From: Sorghum bicolor
Taxonomy: Eukaryota > Streptophyta > Magnoliopsida > Poales > Poaceae
Reading direction: 5' to 3'
DNA: 64,000 bases
NCBI RefSeq assembly: GCF_000003195.3
Contig: NC_012875.2
Coordinates: 17,616,398 to 17,680,397, forward strand
Part shown: piece after piece, positions 1 through 56,145 of the stretch
Numbering within the stretch: the first letter of the stretch is position 1
Layout: every line of letters begins with the position of its first letter
The notes under the pieces: generated by a model
What the model saw: only the letters and a program-made list of their open reading frames with translations
Told to the model about the DNA's origin: nothing
The model's database searches: none
Program-made: the position numbers and the translations under genes

Positions 1-654
1 AGGTGCAAACCTAGATGATAGGTAACGATACTCTCAACTTGTGCAAATTAAAAGAAGAAAGACTTATGTAGGTTATGATAGCGAAATACTGCGGTTTTGC
101 AAAATGGTTGTCAGCTACCCCACTATATAGCCTTCATGATCCTTGATGAGTCTTTATTTTAAGTTTATGACGGGTAAGTCTAGCTGAGTACCTTCTCGTA
201 CTCAGGGTTCTATTCCCATGTTGTTTTGCAGATGGTCAAATGTACTATAGTTATTGCATCCTCTGTCTGTACCCAGCCATGGGTGATGACTAGACCAAGG
301 GCGATGGTCACTCCGTCTCTTCTTTTGCTTTTGTGGGAATGACCAAACTATGGCACTGTATCAGACTAAGCGCGTGTGTTGTATTTTCGAACTATGAAGC
401 TTCCGCTACTTGAAGATCTTGGTTTGTAATAACTTTAAGTACTCCGATGTATTTTCTAAATGTTGTAATCTGGACGTATTTGTGGATGGCGACCGCTAAA
501 CTTATTACGATCTTGGCTGTTGTACGATGTGTGGTTTGAAATCCTTCGAGATTTCACGGACTACCGGGGTTATATGGGCTTAAGCCTGATGGTTTGACTA
601 TGCAAATGGTCGCTGTTGGGCTTAATCTCTTATAATTTGGTCGGTTCTGTTACA
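1..654 (+). mobile_element. Element A: 3' portion of the 5' LTR (Tekay/Del-type Ty3/gypsy)
   Basis: Aligns without a gap to 22597-23250, the end of the element's 3' LTR, with 7 mismatches by my reading (about 1.1%). It ends in TGTTACA, matching the TGTAACA start of the 3' LTR at 7335, and is followed by a primer binding site. The missing 5' part lies left of the window. At a commonly used grass LTR rate (1.3e-8 per site per year) the divergence suggests insertion roughly 0.4 million years ago; the rate is an assumption. Confidence 0.93.
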
Positions 655-656
655 GC

Positions 657-668
657 TGGCAACGGAGC
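657..668 (+). other. Element A primer binding site (initiator-Met tRNA type)
   Basis: TGGCAACGGAGC lies two bases after the LTR end and matches the plant iMet-tRNA 3' complement TGGTATCAGAGC at 9 of 12 positions. Element D has the closer form TGGCATCGGAGC at the same place. Minus-strand DNA synthesis would start here. Confidence 0.75.
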
Positions 669-1482
669 AAGGTTTAGCGGGTTACTGTTCATAAGTACGT
701 TCTAAACAAAAATCTAAACCGGATTAATAAAAGATTTTTCTTAATTAATCAATAATAATCAAGGTGTTAAGCTAAGTTTTGGAAAAATTATCTAGTGTGC
801 CATGGTCATATCCTTTATGCCCAGTTAAGGACTCTAAGGTGGCTAGTTAAGTACTGACTTGGGGGTTAATGCATCATATTTTTATTTCGTCACTCATACG
901 GCGTGTAATAGTATGAGTGCCATTCATTTGAGTGGTAATGTATGGATCAATCTTTCCTCCACGCCACGGTAAGTGGGAGCTGTGAGAGCAAGTTCGGATA
1001 CACTGCCGGTCTAGGGGAGTGTTGTTAGGTACTGTGTCATGCACACATGTTTGGTGTGTCTTGGGAACAGTACCACATGCTGGGAATTCCGTCCTGAGAG
1101 GCGATGCCGTCATTAGGGCGATGATGTGGGTAGTGGCACATAACATGCATGGACGGGTGTCTGAGTGTGTGAAGTGCATAGTTTTAAATTCTTGTTCTGC
1201 ACGATCATACTGTGGGTGGGCTGAAATGAGTTTTCTACAGGTACACTAACCACGTTCTCGCTTAGAACATTAGTTACGTTATGAGAGAGTGTTGTATGCC
1301 ACCGCATATACCGCTTAGTGTTAACCTTTGTTTTCTAAGTTTGTGAGATTGTAAGTTCGTGCATGCATCATGATCATTTCATATCATTGCTTACTTTCCC
1401 CCTTAATTTAATCTGTCCCAATTCTAAATAAAATAAATAAAGGTAATCCTTGCTCTTACCCACGGTATTCCATTTGCAGCAG
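669..1482 (+). other. Element A leader, with a candidate splice donor and acceptor
   Basis: About 0.8 kb of untranslated leader with no convincing gene. It contains the strong plant splice-donor consensus GTAAGT at 969-974. It ends in the tandem acceptor-like TTTGCAGCAG at 1473-1482, immediately before the next ATG. A similar acceptor-like TATGCAG ends at 2849, directly before the gag ATG. The homologous leader of element D (56158-56402) breaks off before the donor position. Splicing is inferred only. Confidence 0.5.
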
Positions 1483-2526
1483 ATGGCACGCACTAGGCTC
1501 ACCGCTCGCAAGTCCACTGGTGGGCGGGCCCCTCGCCATCCGTTGGCAGCTAGGAGCTCGCGACATAAGAGCAAGTTCCTGGAGGAGTTTGGGATGCCCA
1601 CTTTGCTTTGGAGAGTGCTCAGTTCGATGGGGTATCCCGAAGGAAGGGAGCCTCGCTATTATTGGGATAAGGAGCCGCTTGGTGACGAGACCCTGGTGGG
1701 GATCGAGGCAGTTGTCCCTACCAGTGGAGGAGACCCTGCTTGGGGCGGTTGGGTGTACGAGTCCCGAGGTGTCACGCCTTTCCACGGTGCCAGCAGGGCA
1801 GCTTTCGCAGTTCTGAGGGACCTCATGGAGAGGTTTCCACAGGAGCTGGCCCACGCCTTCGCTGGGGTGTTTCCCCGGGGTGACCCTTACACTTCGGTGT
1901 GGGATCAGTCCGAGGTGAATGCTCTAGAGAGGAGTGCGGATGAGGACCAGCACAGTGACGGTGCAGCTATGAGTGCTATGTACGTGTTGATGAAGACCTA
2001 TGGAGGCCTAGAGCGTTGTTTGGGTCGCTTGTCCGGGTCTCTTCTCACCGTCCAGGATGAGAAGCGTCAGTTGCGGCGTGAGTTTGACTCTGAGGTGGAG
2101 AGGCTACAGGTAGAGTTGGCCCGTGTATCTAGAGAGAGAGACCAGGCAGTTCAGAAGAACAGTGAGCTGAGTCAGGACCTGCTTGCAGTGCGTGAGCTGA
2201 GGGACAGGGTGACTACCGCTCACAGGAACTGCGAGCGCATGCTAGTCCATGTGCTTGGACAGAGGAATGAAGCCTGGCACGAGGAGGACACTTTGAGGGC
2301 CCGACAGCTGGAGCTAGAGCAGCAGCTAGCTAATGCTGAGGAGTACAATGAGAACTTGCATGAGGAGATCCACCAGCTGCATAACCAGCTCCACCCTCAC
2401 CACCTGCCTGGAGCAGCTGAGCTAGACTCTGAGGACGAGATGGACGCGGATCCCGAGATAGGAGCAGCTGCTAGTGGAGATGAGGATGAGGATGGCTCCG
2501 GCATGGACAGTGATCATAGCGACTAG
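1483..2526 (+). CDS. Extra gene upstream of gag: H3-tail-like N terminus, coiled coil, acidic C terminus
   Basis: A 347-residue intact frame between leader and gag. I chose the ATG at 1483, although the frame is open from 1450, because the protein then starts MARTRLTARKSTGGRAPR, close to the histone H3 tail. With the initiator Met removed, 17 of the first 26 positions match H3. K9 in ARKS is kept, as are T3, S10, T11, G12, G13, A15, P16 and R17. Positions 4, 14, 18, 23 and 27, all Lys in H3, are Arg or His. A folded-looking middle of unknown family follows (to about residue 150). Next is a Glu/Arg/Leu-rich coiled coil (about 190-310) and a strongly acidic tail (about 315-347). Extra genes before gag are known in plant Ty3/gypsy elements; I do not recognise this one. 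The role is unknown; chromatin mimicry is my inference. It has no internal stop, unlike gag-pol beside it. Confidence 0.8.
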   Translation: MARTRLTARKSTGGRAPRHPLAARSSRHKSKFLEEFGMPTLLWRVLSSMGYPEGREPRYYWDKEPLGDETLVGIEAVVPTSGGDPAWGGWVYESRGVTPFHGASRAAFAVLRDLMERFPQELAHAFAGVFPRGDPYTSVWDQSEVNALERSADEDQHSDGAAMSAMYVLMKTYGGLERCLGRLSGSLLTVQDEKRQLRREFDSEVERLQVELARVSRERDQAVQKNSELSQDLLAVRELRDRVTTAHRNCERMLVHVLGQRNEAWHEEDTLRARQLELEQQLANAEEYNENLHEEIHQLHNQLHPHHLPGAAELDSEDEMDADPEIGAAASGDEDEDGSGMDSDHSD

Positions 2527-2849
2527 ATGCTAGGGCTCTAGAGTTAGTCCTTCTTCTTTTGTGTTGTATGTTGCATGGCATGTCGTGTACTTATGGATCT
2601 GGGCTATGTAAGACTTTATGAGTTAATGCTGAAAGTCCAGTGTATGTATGCTGGCAAGTTGGATGTATGCAAACCTTGTTGCGTGAATGTTAAGTAATCT
2701 CTTAGTGATGTTGAGCGTGGATGATGAGTTGTTGTGCCTCTGTTTATTGTGAGAATTTATTCCCTCAGTAAATTCAGTACGGCATGATTCTACACATTTT
2801 CTACCGTTGATGGCAACTCCTAACGATTGCTTATCATTGGCGTATGCAG
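2527..2849 (+). other. Spacer between the extra gene and gag
   Basis: About 320 bases with no supported gene. It ends in the acceptor-like TATGCAG (2843-2849) abutting the gag ATG, the only notable feature. Confidence 0.5.
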
Positions 2850-5800
2850 ATGGTGCAAACACGTGGCGGGGGTAACAGCAATCCGGGTCTTGGAGCAGGT
2901 ACATCCGGAGGTGGGGCCCAATGGAATGAGGACCGAGCACCAACACCGCCCCCACCACCGCCTCCTCCGTAAACTGCGGACGTGTTTTTCGCGCAGTTTC
3001 TGGGGAGCCAACGCAACATGGAACAGATGCAGCGCAACATGGAAGAAGCTCTACGCAACATAGCTGACAACACCCGTCGTGGGGATAACCAGGGCGGCCG
3101 TGAAGTCAACCAGTACAGTTCGTTCAAGGACTTCATGGATACTAAGCCACCAATCTTCAAAGAGGCTTTGGAACCGCTCGAAGCAGATGAGTGGATCAAC
3201 ACCATGGAGCAGAAGTTTCGTCTTCTCCGAATGACAGAAGAACTCAAGGCTGAGTATGCGGCACATCAGTTACAAGGTCCCGCTGGGATTTGGTGGTCCC
3301 ATCACCGTACCACCTACCCAGAGGGGACCCCAATCACCTGGAACCGCTTCACCACCGCTTTCCGGGGAAATTATATTCCTCCGGGTGTGGTTGAAATGAA
3401 AGTTGGGGAGTTCATGAGGCTGTCTCAGGGGACGAAATCTGTGAAGGAGTATCTGCATGCTTTCAATAATCTCGCTCGCTATGCCCCTGAGTTTGTAAAC
3501 ACGGAGGCTAAGAAGATTGCTAGTTTCTAGAGGGGTTTGAATCCAAAGATGCTAAAGACCATGGGTACAGGGGCCAGGGCTACTTTCAATGCCTATATCA
3601 GTGACTGTCTGACCCAGGAGAACAATAACAACAACTACAGTGCATCCAAGTCTCGTAAGAGGGCTTTTGAAGCTGGATCATCCCAGTCCAGGGCACCAGT
3701 GGCAGGGCGACAGCCGTATCGTCCTCCTGCCCCAGGTGCTAGGTTCCGACCGCCGCAAAGGAGGAACACCGGACATCCAACACAGCAGAAGCCGTACAAG
3801 GTGGCGATAGCCCCTACCAAGCCAAAGGCAATTCAAGCCACAGCACCTGCCATCAACAATGCGCCCAAGGGTCCATGCTATAACTACCACAAGATGGGGC
3901 ACTTTGCTAAGGAATGTCCCTACCCCAAGAGGCAGCAGCCAACCTATCCAGCTCGTGTGCACCATACCTCGATCGAGGAAATCCCGGAAGGAGAACCGGT
4001 AACAGCTGGTATGTTCTCTGTCAACCAACATCTCGCAGTTGTTTTGTTTGATTCTAGATCATCGCATTCATTCATGAGCCAAGCATTTGCACAAAAGCAT
4101 GATCAGTCAGTTACAGAGTTAGGTTATGGCTATCGCATCAGCTCAGCTGGAGCCGATGTGTTGACGAATAAAACAGTAACAGGAGTTACTTTGGATATCA
4201 GTGGCCGGAGGTTTCGTGTAAACCTTGTGGTCATGCCAGGACTGGTTTTGGATGTCATCATTGGAATGAACAAGATGACTGACTGGGGCGCGGTTATAGA
4301 TGCCGGGAATAGAACTCTTTCCCTTAGAGACCCGCAAGGGAAGGGTGTGCTTCAGGTCAAGCTACCCAGACGGTTGGACTTCGCCAGTCTTTCGTGTGCA
4401 GTACATGTAGTTCCACTAGAACACATACCCGTGGTATGTGAGTTCCCTGATGTGTTTCCTGAGGATTTACCAGGACTTTCCCCAGATAGGGAAGTGGAGT
4501 TTGCAATCGAGTTGATACCGGATACAGCACCAATATCTAGGAGGCCGTATCGGATGCCCCCAAACGAACTCGCTGAGTTGAAGAATCAACTAAAAGAATT
4601 ACTGGATAAAGGGTTCATCCGACCAAGCTCGTCAGAATGGGGTTGTCCAGCGTTGTTTGTGAAAAAGAAGGATCAATCGTTGCGCATGTGCGTGGACTAT
4701 CGTCCACTCAATGCAGTAACAATCAAGAATAAGTATCCTTTGCCAAGGATTGATATCCTGTTTGATTAGTTGTCCAAGGCAAGAGTGTTTTCTAAGATAG
4801 ATTTGAGGTCTGGGTATCACCAATTCAAGATTCGTCCGCAAGATATCCCGAAGACTGCTTTTTCTACCAGATATGGGTTGTATGAGTATCTTGTCATGTC
4901 CTTTGGATTGACGAATGCTCCTGCATACTTTATGTATCTGATGAATTCAGTCTTTATGCCAGAATTGGATAAGTTTGTTGTGGTGTTTATTGATGATATT
5001 CTGGTTTATTCAGAAAATGAGCAAGACCACGCCGAACATCTAAGAATCGTGTTGACACGATTATGAGAGCATCAGTTATATGCCAAGTTCAGCAAGTGTG
5101 AGTTCTGGTTGAAGAAAGTTCCTTTCCTAGGGCACATTCTGTCTGAAGAAGGGATTGCTGTGGATCCATCAAAAGTGCAGGAAGTCATGGACTGGAAGGC
5201 ACCAACTTCTGTCTCGGAAGTTAGAAGTTTTCTTGGTCTGGCCGGGTATTATCGTCGGTTCATACCTGACTTCTCCAAGATTGCTAAACCAATGACAAGT
5301 TTGCTACAAAAGGATCACAAGTTTGTCTGGATGGAAGGGTGTGAGTTAGCCTTCCGCACCCTGCGAAAGTTGCTAACCACTGCTCCCGTTCTGGCACAAC
5401 CTAATATCGAGAAGCCTTTTGATGTGTTTTGCGACGCATCAAAGAGTGGCCTGGGGTGTGTGTTGATGCAAGATGGCAGAGTGATAGCTTATGCTTCCCG
5501 ATAGTTGAGAAAGCACGAGGTCAACTACCCAACGCACGACCTTGAGTTAGCAGCAGTGGTACATGCTTTGAAGATCTGGGGACATTATCTGCTGGGAAAT
5601 AAGTGTCACATTTATACCGATCATAAGAGTTTGAAGTACATCTTCACGTAGTCGGAGCTGAATATGAGGCAACGACGGTGGTTAGAGTTAATCAAGGACT
5701 ATGATCTGGAAGTTCACTATCATCCGGGCAAGGCTAATGTAGTAGCAGATGCTCTAAGTCGTAAACCACACTATCAAGTGGTTCAACCGTTGTTTGAAGA

Positions 5801-7322
5801 TGGGTTCAATCTCATGCATCTTGAGGTCTTATGTCACATACAACTCAGTTGTTCACTCGAGAGTCAAGTCATTGAAGAACAGAAAACAGATAAGGGTATC
5901 TTCCATATCAAATAAAAGATCAAAGATGACCCAAAGACTCAGTTTCGGGTTGATGAGAAAGGGGTATTGTGGTTTCAGCAGCGGTTAGTGGTCCCGAAAG
6001 ATCGGGAATTGAAGAATCGCATCATGGATGAAGCTCATCTCTCTAAGCTTTCTATTCATCCTGGCAGTAGTAAAATGTATCAAGATCTAAGACCCCACTT
6101 TTGGTGGACCAAGGTGAAGAAAGAGATAGCCACGTATGTAGCCTGTTGTGACACGTGTTGCAGAGTTAAGGCCATCCATATGAAGCCTGCAGGTCTGTTG
6201 CAACCGTTATCAGTTCCAGAGTGGAAATGGGAAGAGGTCAGCATGGATTTTATCACGGGTTTACCGACGACCAGGAAGGGGAATGACTCGATTTGGGTAA
6301 TCATAGATCGATTGACCAAATCGGCCCATTTCGTTCCTGTGAAGACTCGTTACCGACCTCCTGAATATGCCGATATATATATGGCTGAGATTGTCAAGTT
6401 GCATGGTATCCCCAAGACCATCATATCGGATCGGGGACCGCAGTTCACCGCTCACTTCTGGGAGCGCATGCATAAGAGCTTGGGGACCAGTCTGATAAGA
6501 AGCACGGCGTATCATCCCCAGACTTCAGGTCAAACTGAGAGGCTAAATCAAGTGTTAGAAGATATGCTGATGGCCTGTGTGCTATCATCCAAGGGATCGT
6601 GGGAATCATGGTTACCTTTGGCCGAGTTCTCATACAATAATAGTTATCAAGAGAGTATCAAGATGGCCCCGTTTGAAGCTTTGTATGGTCGAAGATGTAG
6701 AACTCCGTTAAACTGGGTTGAACCTGGTGAAAGAAGATACTATGGTATTGACTTTGTGAATGAAGCCGAGAAAAAGGTGCGGATCATACAGCAGCATATG
6801 CAAGCGGCACAATCACGACAAAAGAGTTACGCTGATAAGAGAAGGAGACCACTTGAATTCAACGTAGGTGACTATGTGTACCTCAAGGTTACGCCAATGA
6901 AGAAAGTTCAACGTTTTCGAGTTCGAAGCAAGCTTGCACCCAGATATGTGGGACCATACCAAGTGCTAGAGAGGAAAGGCCCAGTGGCCTATAAGATTCA
7001 GTTACCTGAAGAGATGAGCTCGATCTTTCCGGTCTTCCATGTGTCGCAACTGCGGAAATGTTTGAAGGTACCTGAACAAAGAATTGAACCTCGAGGAATC
7101 AAGATAAAAGCAGACCTAGAGTATAAAGAGCAGCCAGTGGGAATTGTGGATACCAAGGAGCGAGTAACCCAAAACAGAATTGTCAGAACATATAAGGTGG
7201 TGTGGAGTCATCATGACGATAGGGATGCCACCTGGGAAACAGAGGATTACTTAAAAACAGTTTATCCAAAATTTCATAAGAAATGGTTAGTAACCCAAAA
7301 TCTCGGGACGAGATTTCCCTAA
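2850..7322 (+). pseudogene. gag-pol: Element A gag-pol polyprotein, one frame with seven premature stops
   Basis: A single reading frame of about 1,490 codons with no frameshift. It is interrupted by stops at 2970, 3528, 4767, 5064, 5502, 5649 and 5913. Order: gag (retrotransposon-gag domain about 3130-3530), zinc knuckle (about 3876), aspartic protease (about 4050), reverse transcriptase (about 4500-5066; catalytic Asp pair at 4992-4997 intact), RNase H (about 5400-5650), integrase, chromodomain. Two active sites carry G-to-A type changes: the second Cys of the knuckle is Tyr (3885-3887), and the Gly of the protease DSG is Arg (4056-4058). The order with integrase last and a C-terminal chromodomain marks a chromovirus; the long LTR and iMet primer site fit Tekay/Del. 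It makes the virus-like particle and copies the element when intact; this copy cannot. Confidence 0.93.
5967..7322 (+). CDS. int: Element A integrase plus C-terminal chromodomain (longest unbroken piece)
   Basis: 451 codons without a stop, the 3' end of the polyprotein; the first codon is not a natural start. It has the HHCC zinc-binding region near residues 24-60 (ending CDTC). The DDE core has Asp in SMDFITGL, Asp in ISDRGPQF and Glu in GQTERLNQ, all intact. The last about 60 residues form a chromodomain containing DATWETEDYL. Integrase inserts the cDNA, and chromodomains of this group are thought to steer insertion toward H3K9-methylated chromatin. Ends 12 bases before the 3' LTR. The nearby H3-tail-like protein in the same element makes this chromodomain notable. 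Confidence 0.9.
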   Translation: MWFQQRLVVPKDRELKNRIMDEAHLSKLSIHPGSSKMYQDLRPHFWWTKVKKEIATYVACCDTCCRVKAIHMKPAGLLQPLSVPEWKWEEVSMDFITGLPTTRKGNDSIWVIIDRLTKSAHFVPVKTRYRPPEYADIYMAEIVKLHGIPKTIISDRGPQFTAHFWERMHKSLGTSLIRSTAYHPQTSGQTERLNQVLEDMLMACVLSSKGSWESWLPLAEFSYNNSYQESIKMAPFEALYGRRCRTPLNWVEPGERRYYGIDFVNEAEKKVRIIQQHMQAAQSRQKSYADKRRRPLEFNVGDYVYLKVTPMKKVQRFRVRSKLAPRYVGPYQVLERKGPVAYKIQLPEEMSSIFPVFHVSQLRKCLKVPEQRIEPRGIKIKADLEYKEQPVGIVDTKERVTQNRIVRTYKVVWSHHDDRDATWETEDYLKTVYPKFHKKWLVTQNLGTRFP

Positions 7323-7334
7323 GGGGGGAAGGGC
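7323..7334 (+). other. Element A polypurine tract
   Basis: The run GGGGGGAAGGG directly between the gag-pol stop codon and the LTR start TGTAACACC. It primes plus-strand synthesis. Confidence 0.85.
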
Positions 7335-9246
7335 TGTAACACCCTAGGTGTTAAGCATGCACTTAGTCTCATCAAAGTCATGCATAAGCATTCCCATCAA
7401 GCATAAGCATCATGAGCATGTCATTCTTTGCAAGTATGATTGTATGTGCTTCATTTCATGAGTTATAAATATGCTAAAAATATGATACTTGCTCCTAAAA
7501 TGGTGAAATATTCAAACTAGGTTGATTTAGGTGTAAGAAGAATTTAGAGTATTTTTGTGCAATTTTTGGAGCTATAGAAATTGAGAAATGGAATTTATAC
7601 AAAATTTCCAAATTGGATTTATTTAAAAACCTAGAACTAAGTTTTAATTTGTAGTTCAAATTCTATTGGGAATTTGATCTTGTTTATTAAAGCAAAGTTG
7701 TAGAGTTTTTATTTTGGGACAACTTTGTTTTTGGGAGCAAGAGGTGAAAATGATTGTAAAATAGCCCAAATGAATTTAGAAAAGAATTTGAGAAAAGAAT
7801 TTCAAAAAAAAGGGAAAGGGGCAGGCGCTGCTGGGCCAACCCCGCTTCCCTTTCGGCCCAGCGAGCGGCCCGGCCTGCCTCCCCCTTCTCCTCTCTCCCG
7901 CGCGCGGACGCGCCTCGCTCCACCCGGCGCCGGCCACGTGGCGTTTCTCTGCCTCCTTTCGCTCGTTCTTTGTCGCGCTAGGTCGGTAGGGTGGTGAGGA
8001 AGCTCGGAGAGCCGTTTGCGCACGCTCTACCGCGCCGGAGCGGCCTGGCCACGGCGAGCAGCGCCACCGTGCCGCCATGCATGCTCGTCGGAGGTGTTCC
8101 GGTCACCCTCTGGCCAATTCAAGGGTACCGTTGGGTGCGCCTCGCTGCGGGGAGCACGTTGGTGCTCACCCCGTGGCCGGAGACCTCACCGCCGGCGAGA
8201 TCTGCTCGTCGGAGGTGAGCTCCCTCTCGGTCTCGCTGACCGGTGGGGTCGGGGACCCACTATCAATCGCAGGGGTACCCCGGTGGGTGTAGATCTGGGT
8301 GTGCGTAGCCTTTTTCGTCGGTTTTCTTGAAAAAGTGTTTTCCAGAAATTGATTTAAAGTTTGTAAAATCTATATCTTGAGTTCTACAGCTCCAAATTGA
8401 ATGAAATAAATTTTGGTGTGCTCTATATTTCCAGATCTACAGTTTGATGTAATTGCATGTCATGTTTGAGTAACTTTTCTGTGTGAATATAATTAATCTA
8501 TGTTTTTGCTAAACTTAGAAAATACATAGTAAATAAAATATGGCTCAGAAAAATGTGAATCTTGATTTGTTGGCTTTGCATGTATGTTTACTCACTGAGA
8601 AAATATTGCTACATATTATTTGGTGTATAAATGAATTTATGGTAATTTAAATGCTTGCATGGCAGTGATTTATGATTTTTAATAATTAATTGGATCATGC
8701 AATAAATCTGGAAAATTTTGTGGGTGTTTCTTATGATATTATACGAATTGTAAAAATATGAAATCTGTTGTTTGACACTTGTATCCCAGTAGAGTGATTA
8801 TACTTGCCTTATTAATTAATCTTGTGATTTTTGTGACTCAAAATAAGTATCCAAAAATCATGAAAAAATTTACAGTAGACTTTATACTTAGTTGGTAGTC
8901 TCCTGTAATTTTTGTGGAATTTATTGATAAACAGAATTGCATGTAATTTTTATGGGCCTAGAAATAAATAAAGAAAATTATGAATGGTTGTATATATAGG
9001 TTGAATGGAATAAGTTGGGTTTGGGGGTATCTTTGAAGCATCATGTGGGTTGCTGGTTGCATTTGAAAAATAATTGTTGAAGAGAATGCAATAGATGTTT
9101 GATTCAATTGTTTATTCTTGGATGACGTTGACTACCTTGTAATAAGCATGACCAAGTGCATCACCTATGCATCATGTCATGACTCCTTTGGTACTTTCTC
9201 ATACAAGCATCCACTCGGGCATCTTGCATTCCACTCATGAGCATCC

Positions 9247-9462
9247 ATGCATCATACAGGCTCGTAGGAGAACGAAGTGGGACCCGAGGAGCCAGAGGAG
9301 ATTCAGGAGCAGGAACCTTCGGAAGCACAGGAACCCGGAGAGGAACTGCAGGAGTGTCCAGATCACCGACCCAGCACGTTTGAGAAAGGCAAGCCCCGGA
9401 GCATTCTAAGTCTTCCTATTCTCGCTAACTTATACGAAGCACTATACTTGTTCTACTGTATT
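9247..9462 (+). pseudogene. Acidic LTR reading frame, copy in element A (stop at codon 7, end cut by B)
   Basis: Same frame as the complete 75-codon ORF at 54498-54725 in the D LTR. Codon 7 is TAG here (9265-9267) and CAG in D, again a C-to-T change. After it the frame encodes a Glu/Pro/Gln-rich stretch followed by the conserved STFEKGKPRSILSLPILANL. Element B inserted just past this. From the EPGEEL segment to ANLY the A and D copies differ at seven bases, all synonymous third positions. Function unknown. Confidence 0.45.
9458..9462. repeat. Target site duplication of element B (left copy)
   Basis: GTATT immediately left of B; the same five bases lie immediately right of it at 21813-21817. 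Exact 5-bp duplication proves the B boundaries. Confidence 0.93.
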
Positions 9463-10149
9463 TGTTGACACCATTTTTGGGCACGTGTCTAGGATGGCGT
9501 GATAGGGTGGCAGTACGATGCGGGTTGCCGATGAGGATGATTGCCGATGAGGGAGAATTTGAATATGACTAAGTCCACAGGCAGTAATATGGTGCCGATG
9601 GCTGGATAAAAAGGTCTGCCGATGACTATGGCAAGGGGATTGCCGATGATGTGAAGGAGGAGTCCGGAAGCTGCCGGTTGTCATGTGGAGGAGTTTCGGT
9701 TTGTCACGAAGGATAGTTCTATTATTTCCTTAGTTATTTGCATCGTTTTGTATACGGATTCCGTGTAATTTGGAATTCGAATTCTAATCGTGTCTGGTTG
9801 TAGCTCTTTGAGCAGGGTATAAATATAAACCCTAGGACCTTGTAATCAATAACAATAAAAAATAAAACACCAGTTTTTACTCATATTCTAGCATCTACTA
9901 TTTCGACGACTTCGTCATACTTTTTCCTTTTTACTACGAGTTCTTAGGAATTCGTCGACTTAAGCTCGGCGTGTTCTCAAGTTCCGCGTGAATACCTCTT
10001 GGCCGTGACATCCGGGCGCATCGCTGTTGTCAGGACCAAAGTGTTCGAGTTACCACCTTTGCCGATAGTAAGGTCAAATCGGCTGGCACGCCTTAACGTT
10101 TGAATCGGGTATTAGCCCTTTGTGTTTGCAGATCAGTTTTGCATCAACA
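9463..10149 (+). mobile_element. Element B 5' LTR
   Basis: 687 bp, identical in length to 21126-21812. A TATA box lies at 9818-9825. A 3'-end-like A-rich stretch (AATAACAATAAAAAATAAAA) follows about 25 bases later. It contains six copies of GCCGAT, a hexamer strikingly frequent throughout this element. Confidence 0.95.
9818..9825 (+). promoter_or_regulatory. Element B LTR TATA box
   Basis: TATAAATA, preceded by GCAGGG, in the middle of the LTR where the U3/R boundary is expected. The identical box in the 3' LTR is at about 21481-21488. Confidence 0.75.
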
Positions 10150-10156
10150 CATCTTT

Positions 10157-10175
10157 TGGCACGCCCAGTGGGACC
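10157..10175 (+). other. Element B primer binding site
   Basis: TGGCACGCCCAGTGGGACC begins eight bases after the LTR end. The TGG start and position are right for a primer site. I cannot name the primer tRNA with confidence; Tat elements often use an Arg-type tRNA. Confidence 0.6.
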
Positions 10176-10195
10176 GATTCAAGATCAAGATCAAC

Positions 10196-13100
10196 ATGTC
10201 GATCTCTGACCTCGATCAAGAGAACGTCATCCCCGTGACGGAGGCCAACCTCAAGGATGAGCAAAAGCAAGCTATTGCCCAAGCCATGGAAGAGTTCAAG
10301 CAGCAATGCCTGAGGTCTTTCAGCATAAACAGGAGCGGCGAAGTGGTCCAGAAAGATGCACTGCCGGCACCACGGCAGGTCACCTTTGACGCCAATCCTG
10401 GCAAGCTTCAAGATATGGTTGACAATGCCATCAATCGAGCGTTGATCAACCAAGCTGGTGTACTGTCTAATACGGTTTTCAACGCCGTGGCAAGAACTTT
10501 CAAGGAAGGACAAATCCCGCCAAATTATGTGGGGCCCTCCCATCATCAGCCAACGGCACCAGAGGTCACGGCTCCATCGGCTGCCTTGACGAATGCAAGT
10601 GCACAGTCTGCCGTCCCTCCAAGTACATTGGGGACTACTGGTGCACTATCTATGCCGATGGCAACCAACCCACAAATTCCAGTTGGGCAGCATAAACTGA
10701 CAACAGATATGTTGGCATCGGCAATGTCAGGGTTAACTCTTCCTCCCAACTGGTGGGGTTATGGTATGCCTCCAGAGTTGACGCCGGGAACATCACAAAT
10801 AACTGACATGAGGGGCAAAACTCCTATGACATCGGCACCTCCCAATGCGCCGGTGAACCAGAGTCCTCGGTATACCACAACTACTACTGCAAGGCCTCAC
10901 ACTGGGAATCCTCAAGATTCAATGTTTCAGATGCCCAACGCATCGGCAGAGTCAATGCTGATGCAACAGAGGCCTATGGCCCAATCGGGGTATGTCAATT
11001 CAACGACGGTACCCAATTACCAATCATCGGCAGCACCTATGCCGATGAACGCTAATAATGGATGGCTTGGACAGCAAGCCTTTCCACAATCGCCCCAGCA
11101 GGGTTATCAGACTACAGGGTTCCAGCAAGGGCAGGTCTATCCCGGGTTCCAAGGTTAGGGGATTCCCAACCAGCCAATGAATTTTGGACAGCAACTCGGA
11201 GGACAGCCAATCGGTGGACAGCAGTTTGGTAGTCCGCAGATTGGAGGACAGGTGACCAATACAATGTTCCATGCAGGTCACGTCCCGAACAGACACGTGG
11301 AGGTTCGCCACCAAGTGCCAGATCCGCAGCCGCCTCATCGGCAAGATGCCGATGCATATTGGGCCGATAAGATTGCTGAAGTAATGAGGGAACAGTTTGG
11401 GATAAAACCCAAGGTCAACACTTATTCTTATCAGACACCGTATCCTCCCGCGTATGATTTGATCCCGCTTCCACATCGGTACAAGGTACCGGATTTTACA
11501 AAGTTTTCCGGACAGGACGACACGTCAACCATGGAGCATGTCAACAGGTTCATTATTCAATGTGGAGAGGCTGGTAACAGGGACGAATTGAGGGTTCGTC
11601 TATTTTCATCATCATTGTCTGGATCGGCCTTTACTTGGTTCATATCATTACCTCCCAACTCAGTAATTACTTGGGCCGATCTAGAGAAGCAATTCCACAA
11701 ATACTTCTTCTCGGGGGTTCATGAGAAGAAGATCACCGACTTGGTCAAGTTGAGGCAACGTAATGATGAGTCGGTTGAGGGATTTGTGCAGAGGATACGA
11801 GAGGTCAAGAATAAATGCTATAGCCTGGTTCTGGATGATCGGCAGCTAGCCGATTTGGCTTTCCAGGGTTTGTTGCCACATATCAGGGATAAGTATGCCT
11901 CTCAGGAGTTCGAAAGTTTAAGTCATTTGGTGTAGAAGATTTCTGATCAAGACATCAAGCCTTTCGAGCCTAAGAGGGCATGGAATAAGAAAGTGTCATT
12001 TGTTGATGAAGCAACAAGCTCAGATTCTGATGAAGAACCGGTAATCGGTTTGGCAGAGTGGGTAAAAAACAAGAAGCTGATGTCTTGTCCTTTTGGGCAG
12101 AAGGAACCGGAGAAGTTTGCTTTTGACACCGCTAAGGCTGATAGGATATTTGACTTTCTACTTCAGGAAGGTCAGATCAAACTGTCACCTAACCATGTGA
12201 TCCCATCGGCAGAAGAGTTGAAGAGGATGAGATATTGCAAGTGGCATAATGCAACTTCCCATGACACCAACGAGTGCAAAGTATTCAGACAGCAGCTGCA
12301 ATCGGCTATAGAGGCAGGGAGAATCAAGTTTGACAGTTCCAAAGCCCAGAAGCCGATGAAGATAGACCAACATCCTTTCCCGACAAACATGTTGGATGCT
12401 AAGGGGAAGGCTAAGGTCTTAACATCGGAGACAGCTGAGAGGAGTGCATCGGTAGATCCTCAGCATCAAGTTACTACTGCCGATGCAAGAAGTAAAGGCT
12501 TGGTCCAGGAAGGAACTAGCTCAGGAAGGCTTCCTCGATCCGGTATCGTCATAACTCATAGAAGGCCTCGAGAGAAATGGCAACAACGGGAAGATCGGTA
12601 TCGGCGCCAGCAGGAAGATTATCTACGGGAAGAAGAAAGACGCCGACAGGAGTGGAATCGGCACAGGGATCATTGGAATTGTCCATTCTTCATCCATTGT
12701 TGGGAGGAAAATATCAAGCTTCCTACTGTCAGAGACTGCCCTGAGTGCAACGGTTATGATCGGTACGATAGGATCGATCGGCATTATCATAATGATGAAC
12801 GGCGATTTAATGGGCCGATCAGAGGAAGGGTGTCAGTTCATGACCGGCTGGGGGGCAGATTTAGTGGGCACAACAGACTTAGTGACCGTGTCCAGTATTT
12901 TCCCAGGAACCAAGAAGAGCTCGGGGAAATGGCTGATGCGCGGGTTCCCGATGAATTCATATTTTGCAGGGATGCTAACACGCACCGTATGGAGTCAAGG
13001 GAGAACCGACGCCCGACGGCAAAGCAAAGACCACTTCCTCCATGGTGCCCTGGAGGATTAACCAAGACACAGAAAAGGAGATTGCAACGTGAGAGGCAAG

Positions 13101-13843
13101 AAGAGCTAAACAAGGGAGAGAACTCTGGAAGTCGGCAGCCGTCAGACACTAAGAGGGAAAGTCCATCGGCAGACGTCAACATGGTCTTCATGTTGCCGAT
13201 GGAGTTTCTTGCACCAGCCAGCGATGATGAGGTGGAATTTTCTGATCAAATAGCTCAGTTGGCTCTGGATCCGATGACGGCTATCTTTGAGAAACCTGCC
13301 GATGACGAGAGGCAGCATCTTAAAGCCCTGTTCCTCAAAGGAAGGGTTGATGGGCAGCCAATGACCAAGATCCTAGTTGATGGTGGAGCTGCTATTAATA
13401 TTATGCCGTATGCAGTATATCGGAAGCTTGGGAAAGGGGATCAAGATTTGACCAAGACCGATATGATGCTCAAAGACTTTGAAGGAAACGTGTCTCCAGT
13501 CAAGGGGGCGATATGTGCAGAATTGACCATCGGCAGTAAAACCTTGCCGACAACTTTTTTCGTGATCAGCGGAAAAGGTGCTTACAACTTATTATTGGGA
13601 AGAGATTGGATTCATGCCAATTGTTGTATCCCATCTACAATGCATCAGTGCTTGGTTCAGTGGGTAGGTGACAAGATTGAGATTGTCCCAGGAGATTCTT
13701 CTTATGTTATCGCATCGGCAGAAGCGGATACTTACGAAAGGACCAGGTGCATTTCAGGAGAAGTTTGGGAGAAAGATTTTCTCAAAGTTGCCGATTATGA
13801 GATTCCACCGATCCAAGCAGTCGGTTCTGATGACGGTTTCTAA
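10196..13843 (+). pseudogene. gag-pro: Element B gag-protease frame with two amber stops
   Basis: One frame from the ATG at 10196 to TAA at 13841-13843, interrupted only by TAG at 11156 and TAG at 11933. The N-terminal part is Pro/Gln/Ser/Thr-rich. A retrotransposon-gag domain spans about 11490-11935. Two Cys/His clusters follow (near 12240 and 12690-12755, the latter with CPFFIHC...CPEC). The aspartic protease has DGGA at about 13379-13390. Both stops sit where CAG would be a simple one-base ancestor; they could instead be read-through sites, since each is followed by open frame, but the gag core spans the gap. The stop TAA overlaps the pol ATG by one base (TAATG). Confidence 0.88.
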
Positions 13844-16800
13844 TGGATAGATTCGCCGATGATGGAAAATTAGGCCAGGGGTTCACATCGGCCGATGATT
13901 TGGTAGAAGTAGATATAGGTAGTGGTGATAAGCCTAGGCCTACTTTTATTAGTGCTAAATTAGATCCTGAGAGTAAGCGACAATTGACTAGTTTGTTAAA
14001 GGAATATAAAGATTGCTTTGCTTGGGATTATACAGAGATGCCTGGTTTAGACCGATCAATTGTTGAACATCGGTTACCCATCAAGTCTGGATTTCGGCCA
14101 CATCAGCAACCAGCCCGCCGATGTAATCCTAACATTCTACCTGATATTAAAGCCGAAATCACTAAACTTATTGAAGCTAAGTTTATTCGGCAGTGTCGGT
14201 ATGCCGAATGGATTTCCAATGTTGTTCCGGTTTACAAGAATAACGGGAAGCTTCGGGTGTGCATTGATTTCAGGAATCTCAATAAAGCTACGCCGATGGA
14301 TGGATACCCAATGCCTGTCGCCGATCTACTAGTTGACGCCGCGGCTGGTCATCGGGTCATCAGCTTCATGGATGGTAATGCAGGTTATAATCAAATATTC
14401 ATGGCGGAGGAGGATATTCCAAAAACCGCATTCAGATGTCCTGGTCATGTTGGGCTATTTGAATGGATAGTCATGACTTTTGGGTTGAAGAATGCTGGTG
14501 CTACTTATCAAAGGGCTATGAATTTTATATTTCATGAGTTCATCGGCAAGCTCGTAGAGATTTATATTGATGATGTGGTGGTTAAGTCTGGAGATTTCTC
14601 AAAGCATCTTGCCGATTTACAAAAAGTGTTAGAGTGCACAAAGAAGCATGGATTGAAGATGAATCCCAACAAGTGTGCATTTGGTGTATCGGCAGGGCAG
14701 TTTCTTGGTTTCATGGTACATCAGAGGGGTATTGAAATTAGTCGAAGATCTATTGATGCCATCAATAAAATAGTGGCCCCTACCAACAAAATCGAGCTCC
14801 AATCCTTGATCGGCAAGGTAAATTTTATCAGGAGATTTATATCGAATTTGTCTGGTAGGATTCGCGCTTTCAGTCCTCTTCTTAAATTGAAAGCCGATCA
14901 AGAGTTTATTTGGGGAGAAGAACAGCAGTTGGCTCTAGATGAAATCAAGAAGTATCTAGTAAATCCTCCAGTTCTAGTTCCACCTCAACAAGGGAAGCCC
15001 TTCAGATTGTATTTATCTACCGATGGATCGGTTATCGGTTCAGCCTTAGTTCAAGAATTTGAAGGGAAAGAAAGGGTAATTTATTATTTGAGTAGGAGGT
15101 TGATTGATGCTGAAACCAGGTATTCGGCCATTGAGAAATTATGCTTATGCTTATATTTTTCATGTGTCAAGCTGAGACATTACCTGTTATCGGCCGAATG
15201 CACTGTTATTTGCAAAGATGACGTGGTCCGATACATGCTATCTATGCCGATTATGAGTGGTAGGATCGGTAAATGGATTTTAGCGCTGTCGGAGTTCGAT
15301 TTGCGTTACGAATCGGCTAAGGCAGTCAAAGGGCAAATTATGGCCGATTTTGTGACTCAGCATTACGGTCTAGTGGAAACCTTGGAAATTGTACCCTGGA
15401 CGCTCTTCTTTGATGGATCTACCTGTGACCGGGGGGCAGGAATCGGCATTGTATTAGTTTCCCCTAAGGGGAGGAAGTATGAGTTCTCCTTGCCGATTGT
15501 TGCCACATCAACAAATAATCAGGCTGAGTATCAAGCTCTGATCAAGGGATTGGAGCTGTTAAGAGAAGTTCGTGCTGATGCTGTTGAAATATTCGGGGAT
15601 TCTATGTTGGTTATAAATCAATTGGCCGGAAGCTATGAATGCCGAAGTGAAGTTCTCATAACTTATTTCGAGAGAAGTATGCAACTGTTAAAGGAATTCA
15701 AGGATTTCCGATTGGAGCATGTCCCCCGATTGCATAATGAAGACGCTAATCGGTTAGCTCAGCATGCCTCGGGATATCAGCCAATGATTAATGCGACATC
15801 GGCAGTCGGTGCCGGTGATTGGAGGAAAGAAATTATTGATTATCTAAAAGATCCATCCAAAAAAGTTGAAAGACGGGTTCGATTTCAAGCAACCAAGTAT
15901 GTGCTCCTTGAAAATGAATTGTATTATCGAACTATCGACGGAATTCTTCTCCGATGCTTGGGTGATGATGAAGCTAGAAGTTTGATGGGGGAAATCCATG
16001 AAGGAGTGTGTGGAGCGCATCAGTCAGCTTTTAAGATGAAGTGGATGATTCGAAGGAATGGATATTTTTGGCCAACCATACTTGAAGATTGTTTTAAATA
16101 TTTCAAGGGATGTCAAGGTTGTCAGAAGTTTGGTAATATCCAGAGAGCGCCCGCATCGGCTATGAACCCTATAATAAAGCCTTGGCCGTTCCGGGGATGG
16201 GCCATCGATCTGATCGGCCAGATTTATCCACCATCTAGCAAAGGGCATAAGTTCATTCTAGTTGCCACTGACTATTTCACTAAGTGGGTTGAAGCTATTC
16301 CTTTGAAGAAAGTCACATCGGCCAATATGATTGATTTTGTGAAGGAGCATATTATTTACCGATTTGGGATTCCTCAAACGGTTACTACCGATCAGGGCAC
16401 CATGTTCACATCGGGGGAGTTCGATGGATTCGCAATCGGTATGGGAATTAAAGTACTGAATTCTTCTCCATATTATGCTCAAGCCAATGGGCAGGCCGAA
16501 GCGTCTAACAAAGGAATTATCAAGCTTATTAAACGAAAAATTGAAGAAAATCCTAAGCGGTGGCATACATTATTAAATGAAGCATTGTGGTCTTATCGGA
16601 TGGCTTGTCATGGATCAACCAAGGTATCACCCTATCAATTGGTGTATGGACATGATGCAGTGTTGCCTTGGGAAATTAAGGCTGGATCTAGGCGATTATC
16701 TTTTCAAGATCAATTAACTTCCGATGGTTATGCCACTTCGATGACCGATGAATTGGACGATCTAGCAGGGCATCGGTTAAAAGCTTTAATGAATATAGAA

Positions 16801-17076
16801 GAAAATAAGAAGAGAGTTGCTAGATGGTATGATAAGAAAGTAAAGGCTAAGGAGTTTGCCGATGGGGATTTAGTATGGAAGTTGATTTTGCCAGTTGGGA
16901 CTAAAAGTTCGAAGTTTGGGAATTGGTCTCCTAATTGGGAAGGTCCTTATCGGATAAGGCACTCGGCTCCTGGTAATGCCTATATTCTGGAAACTCTCGA
17001 AGGAGTTGAATTTCCCAGAGCATTAAATGGCAAATATTTAAAGAAGTATTACCCCAGCATATGGGTCGATGCATAA
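13843..17076 (+). CDS. pol: Element B pol: reverse transcriptase, two RNase H domains, integrase
   Basis: 1,077 codons, fully open. Reverse transcriptase spans about residues 100-290 with the catalytic box YIDDVVVKS. A first, degenerate retroviral-type RNase H follows (about 380-480). A second RNase H (about 505-640) keeps its four acidic residues in FFDGS, QAEYQ, GDSM and NEDAN. Integrase (about 690-960) has an HHCC finger ending CQGCQKF and DDE in IDLIGQ, TTDQGT and QAEASN, with no chromodomain. The second, archaeal-like RNase H defines the Tat clade. The ATG overlaps the gag-protease stop by one base and is in the -1 frame, suggesting termination-reinitiation or frameshifting. It converges with the antisense gene that ends at 17342. 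Confidence 0.95.
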   Translation: MDRFADDGKLGQGFTSADDLVEVDIGSGDKPRPTFISAKLDPESKRQLTSLLKEYKDCFAWDYTEMPGLDRSIVEHRLPIKSGFRPHQQPARRCNPNILPDIKAEITKLIEAKFIRQCRYAEWISNVVPVYKNNGKLRVCIDFRNLNKATPMDGYPMPVADLLVDAAAGHRVISFMDGNAGYNQIFMAEEDIPKTAFRCPGHVGLFEWIVMTFGLKNAGATYQRAMNFIFHEFIGKLVEIYIDDVVVKSGDFSKHLADLQKVLECTKKHGLKMNPNKCAFGVSAGQFLGFMVHQRGIEISRRSIDAINKIVAPTNKIELQSLIGKVNFIRRFISNLSGRIRAFSPLLKLKADQEFIWGEEQQLALDEIKKYLVNPPVLVPPQQGKPFRLYLSTDGSVIGSALVQEFEGKERVIYYLSRRLIDAETRYSAIEKLCLCLYFSCVKLRHYLLSAECTVICKDDVVRYMLSMPIMSGRIGKWILALSEFDLRYESAKAVKGQIMADFVTQHYGLVETLEIVPWTLFFDGSTCDRGAGIGIVLVSPKGRKYEFSLPIVATSTNNQAEYQALIKGLELLREVRADAVEIFGDSMLVINQLAGSYECRSEVLITYFERSMQLLKEFKDFRLEHVPRLHNEDANRLAQHASGYQPMINATSAVGAGDWRKEIIDYLKDPSKKVERRVRFQATKYVLLENELYYRTIDGILLRCLGDDEARSLMGEIHEGVCGAHQSAFKMKWMIRRNGYFWPTILEDCFKYFKGCQGCQKFGNIQRAPASAMNPIIKPWPFRGWAIDLIGQIYPPSSKGHKFILVATDYFTKWVEAIPLKKVTSANMIDFVKEHIIYRFGIPQTVTTDQGTMFTSGEFDGFAIGMGIKVLNSSPYYAQANGQAEASNKGIIKLIKRKIEENPKRWHTLLNEALWSYRMACHGSTKVSPYQLVYGHDAVLPWEIKAGSRRLSFQDQLTSDGYATSMTDELDDLAGHRLKALMNIEENKKRVARWYDKKVKAKEFADGDLVWKLILPVGTKSSKFGNWSPNWEGPYRIRHSAPGNAYILETLEGVEFPRALNGKYLKKYYPSIWVDA

Positions 17077-17341
17077 AAGTTTAGGTGCCGATAACACTCC
17101 TATCGGCTGGATTTAAATGTTTGGGGGCAGACTTAATGTTTCAAAAGATGCCGATAACAGTCTTATCGGCTAGACTAAAAGCTAAAAGCGGGGAAACAAA
17201 GGTGTATTGCCGATGAAAGCTTCAAATGTTCAGCAGCGCTTGGATTGCCGATATGGCGCGCAGCCGGATCTGATTGGCTGTCTCTATCTCTTTGATATCA
17301 TCATCGGCAGAACCTTCTATCGGCTTCAGCTTCCTCTTCAG
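17077..17341 (+). other. Element B convergent 3' region with two GCCGAT/ATCGGC dyads
   Basis: Lies between the pol stop and the stop of the antisense gene. Two near-identical blocks each contain GCCGAT, nine bases, ATCGGC: 17087-17107 and 17150-17170. Each can form a 6-bp stem. Between them is a purine run TTGGGGGCAGA resembling a second polypurine tract. Possibly a bidirectional 3'-end or plus-strand priming region. Confidence 0.5.
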
Positions 17342-20300: not shown

Positions 20301-20486
20301 GGTGTGGTTGATCGGTAGGGATGACAATTTTGTTGGACAACTCCTAGTGTTTTGGGGAATAAAATACAAAGAAAAAGAAAAAGGAAGATATTCAGTAAAA
20401 TGAATCGCAGATGAACAGAAATGCGAGAAAAGGTACAGGAGATGAGATGGAAATCTGACCTCAGGGACGACGAAGCCAATGGCCAT
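17342..20486 (-). CDS. Antisense six-exon gene inside element B: plant mobile domain protein with coiled-coil tail
   Basis: Minus-strand exons by my reading: 20486-20460, 20343-18886, 18810-18610, 18526-18163, 18086-17998, 17917-17342. They join to 905 codons ending TAG with no internal stop. Introns are 75-116 bp, GT-AG except intron 3 (GC-AG), and every junction preserves frame; the donor CAA/GTAAGT at 17997 is near-perfect. Exon 2 carries a plant mobile domain (about residues 60-330) with PTLADVAMLTGLDIS, a WLDKFVF block and GGPWWFINMWL. Exon 4 has a basic PKRKG...KRQK patch like a nuclear signal (about 583-599). Exon 6 is a Glu/Lys/Gln-rich coiled coil (about 730-890). Plant mobile domain proteins such as Arabidopsis MAIN and MAIL1 act in the nucleus in gene expression and transposon silencing. 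Introns can persist because the gene is antisense to the element's RNA. A TATA box lies 149 bp upstream. Antisense extra ORFs are known in Tat elements. Function here is inferred. Confidence 0.85.
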
Positions 20487-20634
20487 CTTGTCGTGAAGAG
20501 GACGTTGGAGGGCACCGGAGTTGATGAAGAGGAATGCTTGTCGGAGATCTTGAGGGTTGTAAATGGCGCCACCGCTAGAAAAGCAAAGTTGGATGGTAGA
20601 ATGGTGTAATGGGGGAGGAGTACCCAAGAAGGAA

Positions 20635-20644
20635 CTATTTATAG
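20635..20644 (-). promoter_or_regulatory. TATA box of the antisense gene
   Basis: CTATAAATAG on the minus strand. About 149 bases downstream is the first ATG (20486) in good context (A at -3, G at +4). No other ATG intervenes by my reading. Supports a dedicated antisense promoter separate from the LTR. Confidence 0.7.
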
Positions 20645-21111
20645 GACAAGATGGGCAAGGGCAAATCTGACTTATCTCTCTGCCGCATCCGAGAAGCCTG
20701 AGGGTACTCAGGTGGATATGGTAACTGTTCGCACGGTAATCCAGGGATTGTGCAGGTGATTTGACGGGAAGCGGTCATTATCTAAAGATATTTTACTGTG
20801 CGAGATCTCCTGGTCGGTCCATCGGCGATATTCTATAACGGTCATCTTGCCGATGGGCGGATAGAGCGGAGGTAACCGTTTTTGCAAGTATCCTGGTCAG
20901 AGCATCGGCAGATCTTTGTAACGGTATTGTTGCCGATGTACGACCAAGGAAGATGCCCGTTTAGGAAGTTGGGGATTTCGAGGAGTCTGCGGAGGATTAG
21001 GATCAGAGTTGTCCGGATTGAGGTTGTCGGTTGCCAGATTAGGAGCATTAATTACGGAGAAGGCATCATTACTGCAGAGAATTTCGGAGCATTAATAGTT
21101 TTATACTCCGA
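20645..21111. other. Element B region between antisense promoter and polypurine tract
   Basis: About 470 bp with no gene. It would contain the upstream control region of the antisense gene. GCCGAT/ATCGGC-type hexamers recur here too. Confidence 0.4.
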
Positions 21112-21125
21112 AACTGGGGGGCATG
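21112..21125 (+). other. Element B polypurine tract
   Basis: AACTGGGGGGCATG directly before the 3' LTR start TGTTGACA. Confidence 0.75.
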
Positions 21126-21812: not shown

Positions 21813-21817
21813 GTATT
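21813..21817. repeat. Target site duplication of element B (right copy)
   Basis: GTATT, matching 9458-9462. Confidence 0.93.
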
Positions 21818-23250
21818 GCATTTAAGTGATAGGAATTGCTTGATACCATTGATGCATATGTACTCCTTGTTATCCCTACTTGTTCACCTACCTTGTCCTA
21901 TGTAGATAGGCACGGAGTCTATGCTTAGCTTGCTTAGTCCGGTAGAAGTCGGGTGATTTCCTGTCACCTGCGAGATATAGGTGGATACCTGCTTGTTTAA
22001 GCAGTAGTTGCTTGGGGAAAAGAATAACCAAGTGTGGAATGTATTTGGAGACCAGGCAGGGTCTTATGGTGGGTTGACCATAGTGCTCCTGCCTGTGTCG
22101 ATTAAGGACCGATCGTTGACGGCCCTCTTGTCATGTTGAACGCATGCCCCACATTTAGCTGGAAGGATAAGTCGTTCCGACCGCGAAGCCTGAGCACTAT
22201 CCGGGCCGGGAATCGGCCCGATGTACGCGCTGTATTGGTGATGGTTGAGGAGAACGACGAGGGCGCGGCGCGCAACCTTGGTATACCTTGGATACCTCGG
22301 TCGCCGGAACGGTCCTTGGGTACGGGTGGTGCCTGTCGAACCCGCGAATTGGTCCTGGATAGTGCAACACGGTGACCTGTAGCTCACTTGATCAGTGGGT
22401 GTGGTTTGTGTGGGGAATAAACTCGCCAGCTGGTTAGAAATCGATTCGAATCGCCATCGCTCCTGGATAGTGAGCACTTGACATGAGCCCTGTCCTCGTA
22501 GTAAGGACTATGGAACACTTGGGTTATAATGATGAATGGTTTAAGAAATGCTATGGTGAGTTACTATCATAGTCTTATACTTGCTTGTAATATTGCAGGT
22601 GCAAACCTAGATGATAGGTAACGATACTCTCAACTTGAGCAAATTAAAAGAAGAAAGACTTATGTAGGTTATGATAGCGAAATATTGCGGTTTTGCAAAA
22701 TGGTTGTCAGCTACCCCACTATATAGCCTTCATGATCCTTGATGAGTCTTTATTTTAAGTTTATGACGGGTAAGTCTAGCTGAGTACCTTCTCGTACTCA
22801 GGGTTCTATTCTCATGTTGTTTTGCAGATGGTCAAATGTACTACAGTTATTGCATCCTCTGTCTGTACCCAGCCATGGGTGATGACTAGACCAAGGGCGA
22901 TGGTCACTCCATCTCTTCTTTTGCTTTTGTGGGAATGACCAAACTATGGCACTGTATCAGACGAAGCGCGTGTGTTGTATTTTCGAACTATGAAGCTTCC
23001 GCTACTTGAAGATCTTGGTTTGTAATAACTTTAAGTACTCCGATGTATTTTCTAAATGTTGTAATCTGGACGTATTTGTGGATGGCGACCGCTAAACTTA
23101 TTACGATCTTGGCTGTTGTACGATGTGTGGTTTGAAATCCTTCGAGATTTCACGGACTACCGGGGTTATATGGGCTTAAGCCTGATGGTTTGACTATGCA
23201 AATGGTCGCTGTTGGGCTTAATCTCTTATAATTTGGTCGGTTATGTTACA
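21818..23250 (+). mobile_element. Element A 3' LTR, second part
   Basis: Continues the LTR broken at 9462. It is colinear with D (to 56143), and its last 654 bases match 1-654. It carries the palindrome CGATTCGAATCG at 22442-22453, also present in the D and F LTRs. Ends TGTTACA at 23250; the next bases belong to Athila copy C1, so A inserted into C1. Confidence 0.92.
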
Positions 23251-33490: not shown

Positions 33491-33590
33491 AATTCATGTG
33501 GTATGGTGAAAATGGTAAGGTGAGTGTGGTAAAAAGGGAAAAGAAAAAGGATACACGGATGACTTGGTTCGAAACTAGCACAACTACCGT

Positions 33591-33608
33591 TCCCCGGCAA
33601 AGGCGCCA
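33591..33608 (-). other. C2 primer binding site
   Basis: Minus strand TGGCGCCTTTGCCGGGGA, one base from the C1 site, seven bases from the LTR. Confidence 0.85.
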
Positions 33609-33615
33609 GAAAGCT

Positions 33616-36441: not shown

Positions 36442-36560
36442 ACCTGTTCTGCCCAATCAGGGTACAACTCGGGGATCATGCTCCACCGACCTAATACTTC
36501 AAGGAAAACCACACGATCAATGTCGGTTTGATCCGACGGCCCAGATTCACTTGAAGGGAC

Positions 36561-56143: not shown

Positions 56144-56145
56144 GC

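Follow-up and report, generated by a model that had tools for sequence, protein, structure and literature searches.

A histone H3-like tail on a protein encoded upstream of gag in a sorghum chromovirus

The 64-kb stretch of Sorghum bicolor DNA analysed here (RefSeq GCF_000003195.3, contig NC_012875.2, positions 17,616,398 to 17,680,397 of the forward strand; hereafter the window) holds a Ty3/gypsy chromovirus, a long terminal repeat (LTR) retrotransposon, that encodes an extra protein upstream of gag with an N-terminus closely resembling the tail of histone H3. The product of this extra open reading frame (ORF) begins MARTRLTARKSTGGRAPRHPLAARSSRHKS and, counted from residue 1 after removal of Met, is identical to H3 at 14/17 and 17/26 positions, the latter count as given in the initial annotation, while 200,000 anchored shuffles of the same tail residues reached a maximum of 12 identities. 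As Met is removed before Ala, the product would expose A1-R2-T3 like H3. In a phmmer search of the whole ORF against PDB sequences the top match was histone H3 1-24, aligned residue 1 on residue 1 (E 5.8e-4), and a profile of its relatives again returned histone H3 first (1-24/1-28, most rows 1-28; best E 8.4e-6). These comparisons show a genuine resemblance whose anchor is the N-terminus and, with a match above chance and a modifiable residue kept, histone H3-tail mimicry by the extra ORF product is well supported; the mechanism we infer for it is set out below. The protein is arranged as follows (window positions).

1483..2526, + strand: extra ORF upstream of gag, 347 amino acids, in a different frame from gag-pol (ORF list)
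1483..1572, + strand: H3-like tail (Met plus 29 residues) with K9 kept (sequence comparison)
1573..1836, + strand: predicted double-stranded RNA-binding domain (dsRBD) fold (residues 31-118), alpha-beta-beta-beta-alpha, without KKxAK (AlphaFold2, fold searches, alignment)
1963..2391, + strand: long coiled coil (residues 161-303; AlphaFold2 helix)
2419..2523, + strand: acidic C-terminal end (residues 313-347; sequence, low predicted local distance difference test score, pLDDT)

The coiled coil and acidic end had both been recognised in the initial annotation, and both appear in the AlphaFold2 model, the former with pLDDT 78-98 across residues 171-300 and the latter at low confidence.

Protein searches, the first two of which scored roughly the 8,000 candidates with the most words in common, yielded 81 relatives, presumably for the most part from plant DNA in metagenomes. 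The set of 82 proteins that includes the window ORF contains 27 that cover the start, selected by at least 9/21 identities to H3. K9, P16 and L20 are present in all 27, A1, A7, S10 and G13 in 26, T6 and G12 in 25, and R2, T3, K4 and R8 in 23 each, followed by A15 (21), R17 (20), T11 (12), Q19 (10) and Q5 (4); K14 is retained in one protein and K18 in none (replaced in 26/27 and 27/27, respectively). The relatives amount to a natural experiment on the tail residues, with R2, a basic residue 4, T6-A7-R8-K9-S10, G12-G13, P16 and L20 mostly kept, and Q5, T11, K14 and K18 free. Some are nearer to H3 than the window ORF is, for example P0064, which starts MARTKQTARKSTGGRAPRRQLA, that is H3 1-21 with K14R and K18R as sole changes, and among relatives with the tail the overall identity to the window ORF falls as low as 42-44% (P0026, P0049, P0078). 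The K9-centred mimicry put forward in the initial annotation is supported by this conservation, K9 being present also in 52/52 distinct sorghum contexts. Its claim of replacement at the remaining tail lysines is correct for K14 and K18, and within the window for K23, but not for K4, whose place is Arg in sorghum and Lys in most of the 27. Its reading of K27 as His is correct for an ungapped alignment, whereas with one inserted residue allowed a K-S pair falls at K27-S28. T3 and S10 are sites of H3 kinases, and mimicry of these sites in the manner of Haspin/Aurora substrates, carrying the protein on mitotic chromosomes, would agree with their retention (S10 in 26/27, T3 in 23/27), but K9 is more constant and T3 is lost in 4/27, and we regard this as very improbable.

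None of the remaining 55/82 proteins covers the start with a different sequence, since all begin inside the protein: P0004 starts at window residue 21, and P0043 and P0081 have unaligned N-termini, but far downstream. In P0001, which shares 97% identity with the window ORF, the start is placed at Met38; the sorghum copies run on upstream, so starts of this type are probably gene-caller choices. Among the 82 proteins, of which 27 cover the start, no homologue with a different start or another residue at K9 was found. A search with residues 1-75 returned three proteins, all already among the relatives, and scans of viral contigs with P0034 and P0020 found no relative. Comparison of 11 diverged proteins possessing both tail and domain gives a mean pairwise identity of 0.725 for the disordered tail, possibly inflated by choosing proteins for H3 likeness, and 0.82 for residues 6-13, above the 0.49 of the linker and 0.53 of the folded domain. 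In a short form of 15 proteins (192-210 aa; P0027-P0040, P0042) the folded domain is missing and the tail is joined straight to the coil and acidic end, so that tail and domain can occur apart.

The folded domain, overlooked in the initial annotation, has the alpha-beta-beta-beta-alpha arrangement of a dsRBD in the predicted models and in fold comparison. Among the best rows listed, the closest folds are those of DRB7.2 and DCL4 dsRBD2 (PDB 8igd, 8z49, 9k9p), at 13-16% identity. RNA-binding dsRBDs carry a KKxAK motif at the start of helix 2; at this place, located by eye, the window has PFHGA, and relatives have PKEGA, PWEGA, AKEAA or PVEGA (22 of 43 rows, likewise by eye). A dsRBD-like domain is easier to reconcile with silencing suppression than with integration targeting.

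The best explanation, which we hold tentatively and with slightly less than even confidence, is an anti-silencing accessory protein combining an H3K9-like decoy with a protein-binding dsRBD aimed at DRB/DCL, so that the extra ORF product might work as a decoy in the chromatin arm and the small-RNA arm of silencing alike. If expressed, it would present a molecular copy of the H3 tail, with free A1-R2-T3, the T-A-R-K9-S-x-G-G core, P16 and L20, from which the acetylatable or ubiquitinatable K14, K18 and K23, known sites of these modifications in H3, would have been removed. The coiled coil could display several tails together as a multivalent decoy, and these might serve host H3K9 methyltransferases of the SUVH4/KYP type as pseudo-substrates or decoys and/or, once methylated, occupy K9me readers (ADCP1, CMT chromodomain), with reduced silencing of active copies as the expected effect. 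The dsRBD-like domain, without canonical RNA-contact lysines and most like the DRB4-binding dsRBDs of DRB7.2 and DCL4, would engage DRB/DCL and so act on the small-RNA arm. SUVH4/KYP would be a worthwhile target for a parasite because geminivirus TrAP inhibits it (PMC4606454). ADCP1 is described as a plant K9me reader that recognises R2-K4-K9me2, and HP1-type reading as using Q5-T6-A7-R8-K9-S10 (PMC6318295); Q5 is not kept in the mimic tails. With somewhat lower confidence again, it is possible that the protein represents a dedicated dual suppressor in a plant LTR retrotransposon lineage, a K14/K18/K23-stripped H3 decoy fused to a DRB/DCL-capturing dsRBD.

The extra ORF is abundant in sorghum. 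The 117 scored places, the best of 3266 first-look candidates in the 709-Mb genome, show 96-100% identity, and 99/117 lack an internal stop. Of 70 rows taken for estimating the ratio of nonsynonymous to synonymous substitution rates (dN/dS), 65 were gapless and 52 distinct contexts were used; four of the five dropped rows still carry the tail with K9, the fifth having no start. As 43/52 contexts are stop-free and whole-ORF dN/dS is 0.13 (52 contexts), the extra ORF has been maintained as a protein. K9 is encoded by AAG in 51/52 contexts and AAA in 1/52. Searches for other families in the sorghum genome with P0011, P0034 and P0064 seemingly recovered the same dominant family, among the best candidates scored. 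One copy (G000:C7:41976540-41976959) has a 1345-aa open frame, perhaps the extra ORF reading on into other sequence, and four copies lie on a small contig (G000:C14, near 41872, 51488, 61861 and 88256), three with a spacing of about 10 kb, which may indicate a tandem array.

Several points weigh against the anti-silencing reading. The dN/dS of the tail in the sorghum copies is 0.60 (dN 0.019, dS 0.032; 100 bootstraps approximately 0.41-1.07), or 0.47 in the 43 contexts without stops, compared with 0.10-0.17 in other parts of the ORF and 0.00 in the linker, so that the test suggested in the initial annotation gave no sign of added constraint. These copies are, moreover, the best-scoring ones of the genome search, and selection of the 27 start-covering proteins by H3 likeness biases conservation upward, yet no other type of start was found. 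R8, which K9 writers usually require, is replaced by H or C in 4/27 proteins and by H in 3/52 sorghum contexts, and most relatives lie on short contigs without visible element context. For the folded domain no Foldseek match was obtained at E 0.001 or better (best 0.0036), with non-dsRBD proteins such as ribosome-hibernation factors among the lower rows, and no dsRBD model was among the Pfam families listed at E up to 1 (all six in one scan, the first 25 of 46 in the other). A partnership with DRB/DCL would follow only from likeness between predicted and known folds, among which differences in Z under 1 are ties.

Within-sorghum dN/dS was set aside as uninformative about tail constraint: tail dS is unusually low and tail dN comes mostly from residue 18, which is polymorphic between H and R (36 H, 15 R, 1 Y) and is Lys in no row. 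Tail constraint is thus visible between families but not within the young sorghum family. The same figures bear on the view that the tail, captured from or converged on H3, is now a plain basic segment that directs the protein to the nucleus, binds nucleic acids or pairs with the acidic C-terminus. The tail is strongly basic and within-family dN/dS does not single it out for special constraint, but such a role would leave the exact anchoring at residue 1 unexplained, as well as the fidelity of T-A-R-K-S-x-G-G, P16 and L20, which across diverged proteins exceeds that of the folded domain; we therefore judge it rather unlikely. As a separate observation, the codons of H3-like residues 10-16 (window 1513-1533) do not vary among the 52 contexts even at silent sites, which hints at a signal in the nucleotide sequence, e.g. 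a splicing enhancer.

Between its LTRs the element that carries the extra ORF has, in this order, gag, protease, reverse transcriptase, RNase H, integrase and chromodomain, as in Ty3/gypsy chromoviruses, the chromodomain scoring under the Pfam cut-off.

1..654, + strand: 3' end of the 5' LTR, which starts before the window (98.93% identical to 22597-23250 over 654 bp)
2850..5504, + strand: gag, protease, reverse transcriptase and RNase H in one frame, with stops in this copy (ORF list; Pfam on separate pieces)
5967..7322, + strand: integrase with C-terminal chromodomain at about 7143-7283 (Pfam and PDB sequence match)
7334..9459, + strand: first part of the 3' LTR, split by a nested element (repeat comparison)
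21814..23250, + strand: second part of the 3' LTR (repeat comparison)

The gag-pol pieces match Retrotrans_gag, RVP_2, RVT_1 and RT_RNaseH_2, and in this copy the gag-pol frame is broken by stops, the extra ORF being open. An integrase ending in a chromodomain, as initially annotated, is borne out by Pfam Chromo (E 0.0024, 18.2 bits, below the 25.1 cut-off) and by PDB chromodomain 2m2l (E 4.1e-4). Aligned with Clr4, however, the domain retains one of the three aromatic cage residues of methyl-lysine-reading (group I) chromodomains: the middle Trp is present, the third place is His, and the first, outside the alignment, is Glu by eye against the Clr4 sequence. The chromodomain is thus of the group II type, and with one cage residue kept its canonical reading of methyl-lysine is unlikely. 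Plant group II chromodomains are described as having a similar cage and no partner found (PMC6317226, PMC3350952).

That partner could in principle be the methylated mimic itself, bound by the element's own integrase chromodomain for targeting or particle assembly, as the initial annotation proposed. Mimic and chromodomain do occur in one element, and a partner for the plant group II type had not been found (PMC3350952), but the idea is weakened by a cage in which the middle Trp alone is kept (the first place by eye) and by the presence of Q5, part of the HP1-type Q5-to-S10 motif, in 4/27 proteins only, and we consider it improbable. A K9-methylated tail might instead bind host heterochromatin readers and bridge the particle or pre-integration complex to heterochromatin, aiding targeting and not countering silencing. 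The tail has the ADCP1 motif (K9 with R2 and basic residue 4), tails could be linked by the coiled coil, and a cage-poor chromodomain may need a helper; the extra ORF is, though, separate from gag-pol and in a different frame, and small-RNA biology is a better fit for the dsRBD fold. We rate this tethering role as unlikely, if the least so of the alternatives to an anti-silencing function.

Plant retrotransposons fill much of large grass genomes, and little is understood of how they evade H3K9 methylation and silencing by small RNAs; a conserved H3 tail encoded by a transposable element (TE) together with an RNA interference-type domain is a concrete candidate mechanism, which one peptide suffices to make testable. 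Comparisons can be drawn with viral histone mimics, of which influenza NS1 is one, with proteins of DNA transposons such as the VANDAL elements, and with host dsRBD proteins. DRB7.2 and DCL4 dsRBD2 share the predicted fold but are host proteins of low identity, and neither is known to carry a histone tail. Viral mimics such as SARS-CoV-2 ORF8, with its ARKS motif, and adenovirus protein VII (PMC10208167) are likewise parasite proteins with an H3-like modifiable motif; theirs are short motifs, whereas the tail described here copies over 20 residues beginning at H3 residue 1, is N-terminal and belongs to a plant retrotransposon. Geminivirus TrAP has the same proposed target, the H3K9 methyltransferase SUVH4/KYP, and the same anti-silencing purpose, but it is described as binding and inhibiting the catalytic domain, in an abstract that names no histone tail mimic (PMC4606454). 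VANC proteins of VANDAL elements are likewise TE-encoded and counter host silencing, but are sequence-specific, with no histone tail in the descriptions consulted (PMC5735166, PMC10398659). Plant LTR retrotransposons carry other extra ORFs outside gag-pol, described as heterogeneous and with a known domain in 21.4% (PMC7264820, PMC6317226). The word 'histone' is absent from PMC7264820 and occurs once in PMC6317226, on chromodomain ligands, while plant, retrotransposon and transposable are absent from the viral molecular mimicry review (PMC10208167). Searches of open-licence papers listed no histone-tail mimic in a TE, although earlier notice elsewhere is possible, and as far as these searches show this would be the first TE-encoded example, with many copies in the genome of a crop.

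The leader bears on how the ORF may be expressed.

655..1482, + strand: leader with 19 upstream ATGs (sequence)
2841..2850, + strand: TATGCAG, a candidate splice acceptor directly before the gag ATG (2850; at least 51/57 contexts, 12 commonest forms)

A candidate donor, CACG/GTAAGT, lies at 969 (GGTAAGT within 700 bp upstream in 53/57 copy contexts), and a candidate acceptor, TTTGCAG, ends at 1479, 3 nt ahead of the extra-ORF ATG (54/57 contexts). One donor and two acceptors suggest alternative splicing that would supply either the extra ORF or gag; 13/19 upstream ATGs fall inside the putative intron and six outside. In several relatives LLQ or QQ directly precedes Met, as expected from a translated CAG acceptor. 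Codons at the residues in common with four intron-less sorghum H3 genes match in 3-4/17 cases, which is chance level, and in a second count in 3-4/16 with 3.8 expected; the intron-containing H3 exon L076 has 8/16 codons in common (P approximately 0.02 assuming uniform synonymous codons, and one of six H3 loci) and a second, partial one (L075) 5/13. Capture from one particular H3 gene was not retained as a conclusion, the codon sharing with L076 being suggestive only; it is plausible that the 5' end of an H3 gene was captured long ago.

The insertion is young, since its LTRs are 98.93% identical across the 654 bp available, and the LTR element nested in its 3' LTR (9460-21812) is very young, its own LTRs (9460-10149 and 21123-21812) being 99.42% identical. 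A second copy of the LTR, together with about 260 bp of the leader, lies in pieces at 52217-56400 (86-92% identical), and no second extra-ORF copy was found within the window. The window also holds two direct repeats of about 4.5 kb (23248-27825 and 30322-34856, 92-96% identical), with partial inverted copies near 36133-37550 and 42316-43602.
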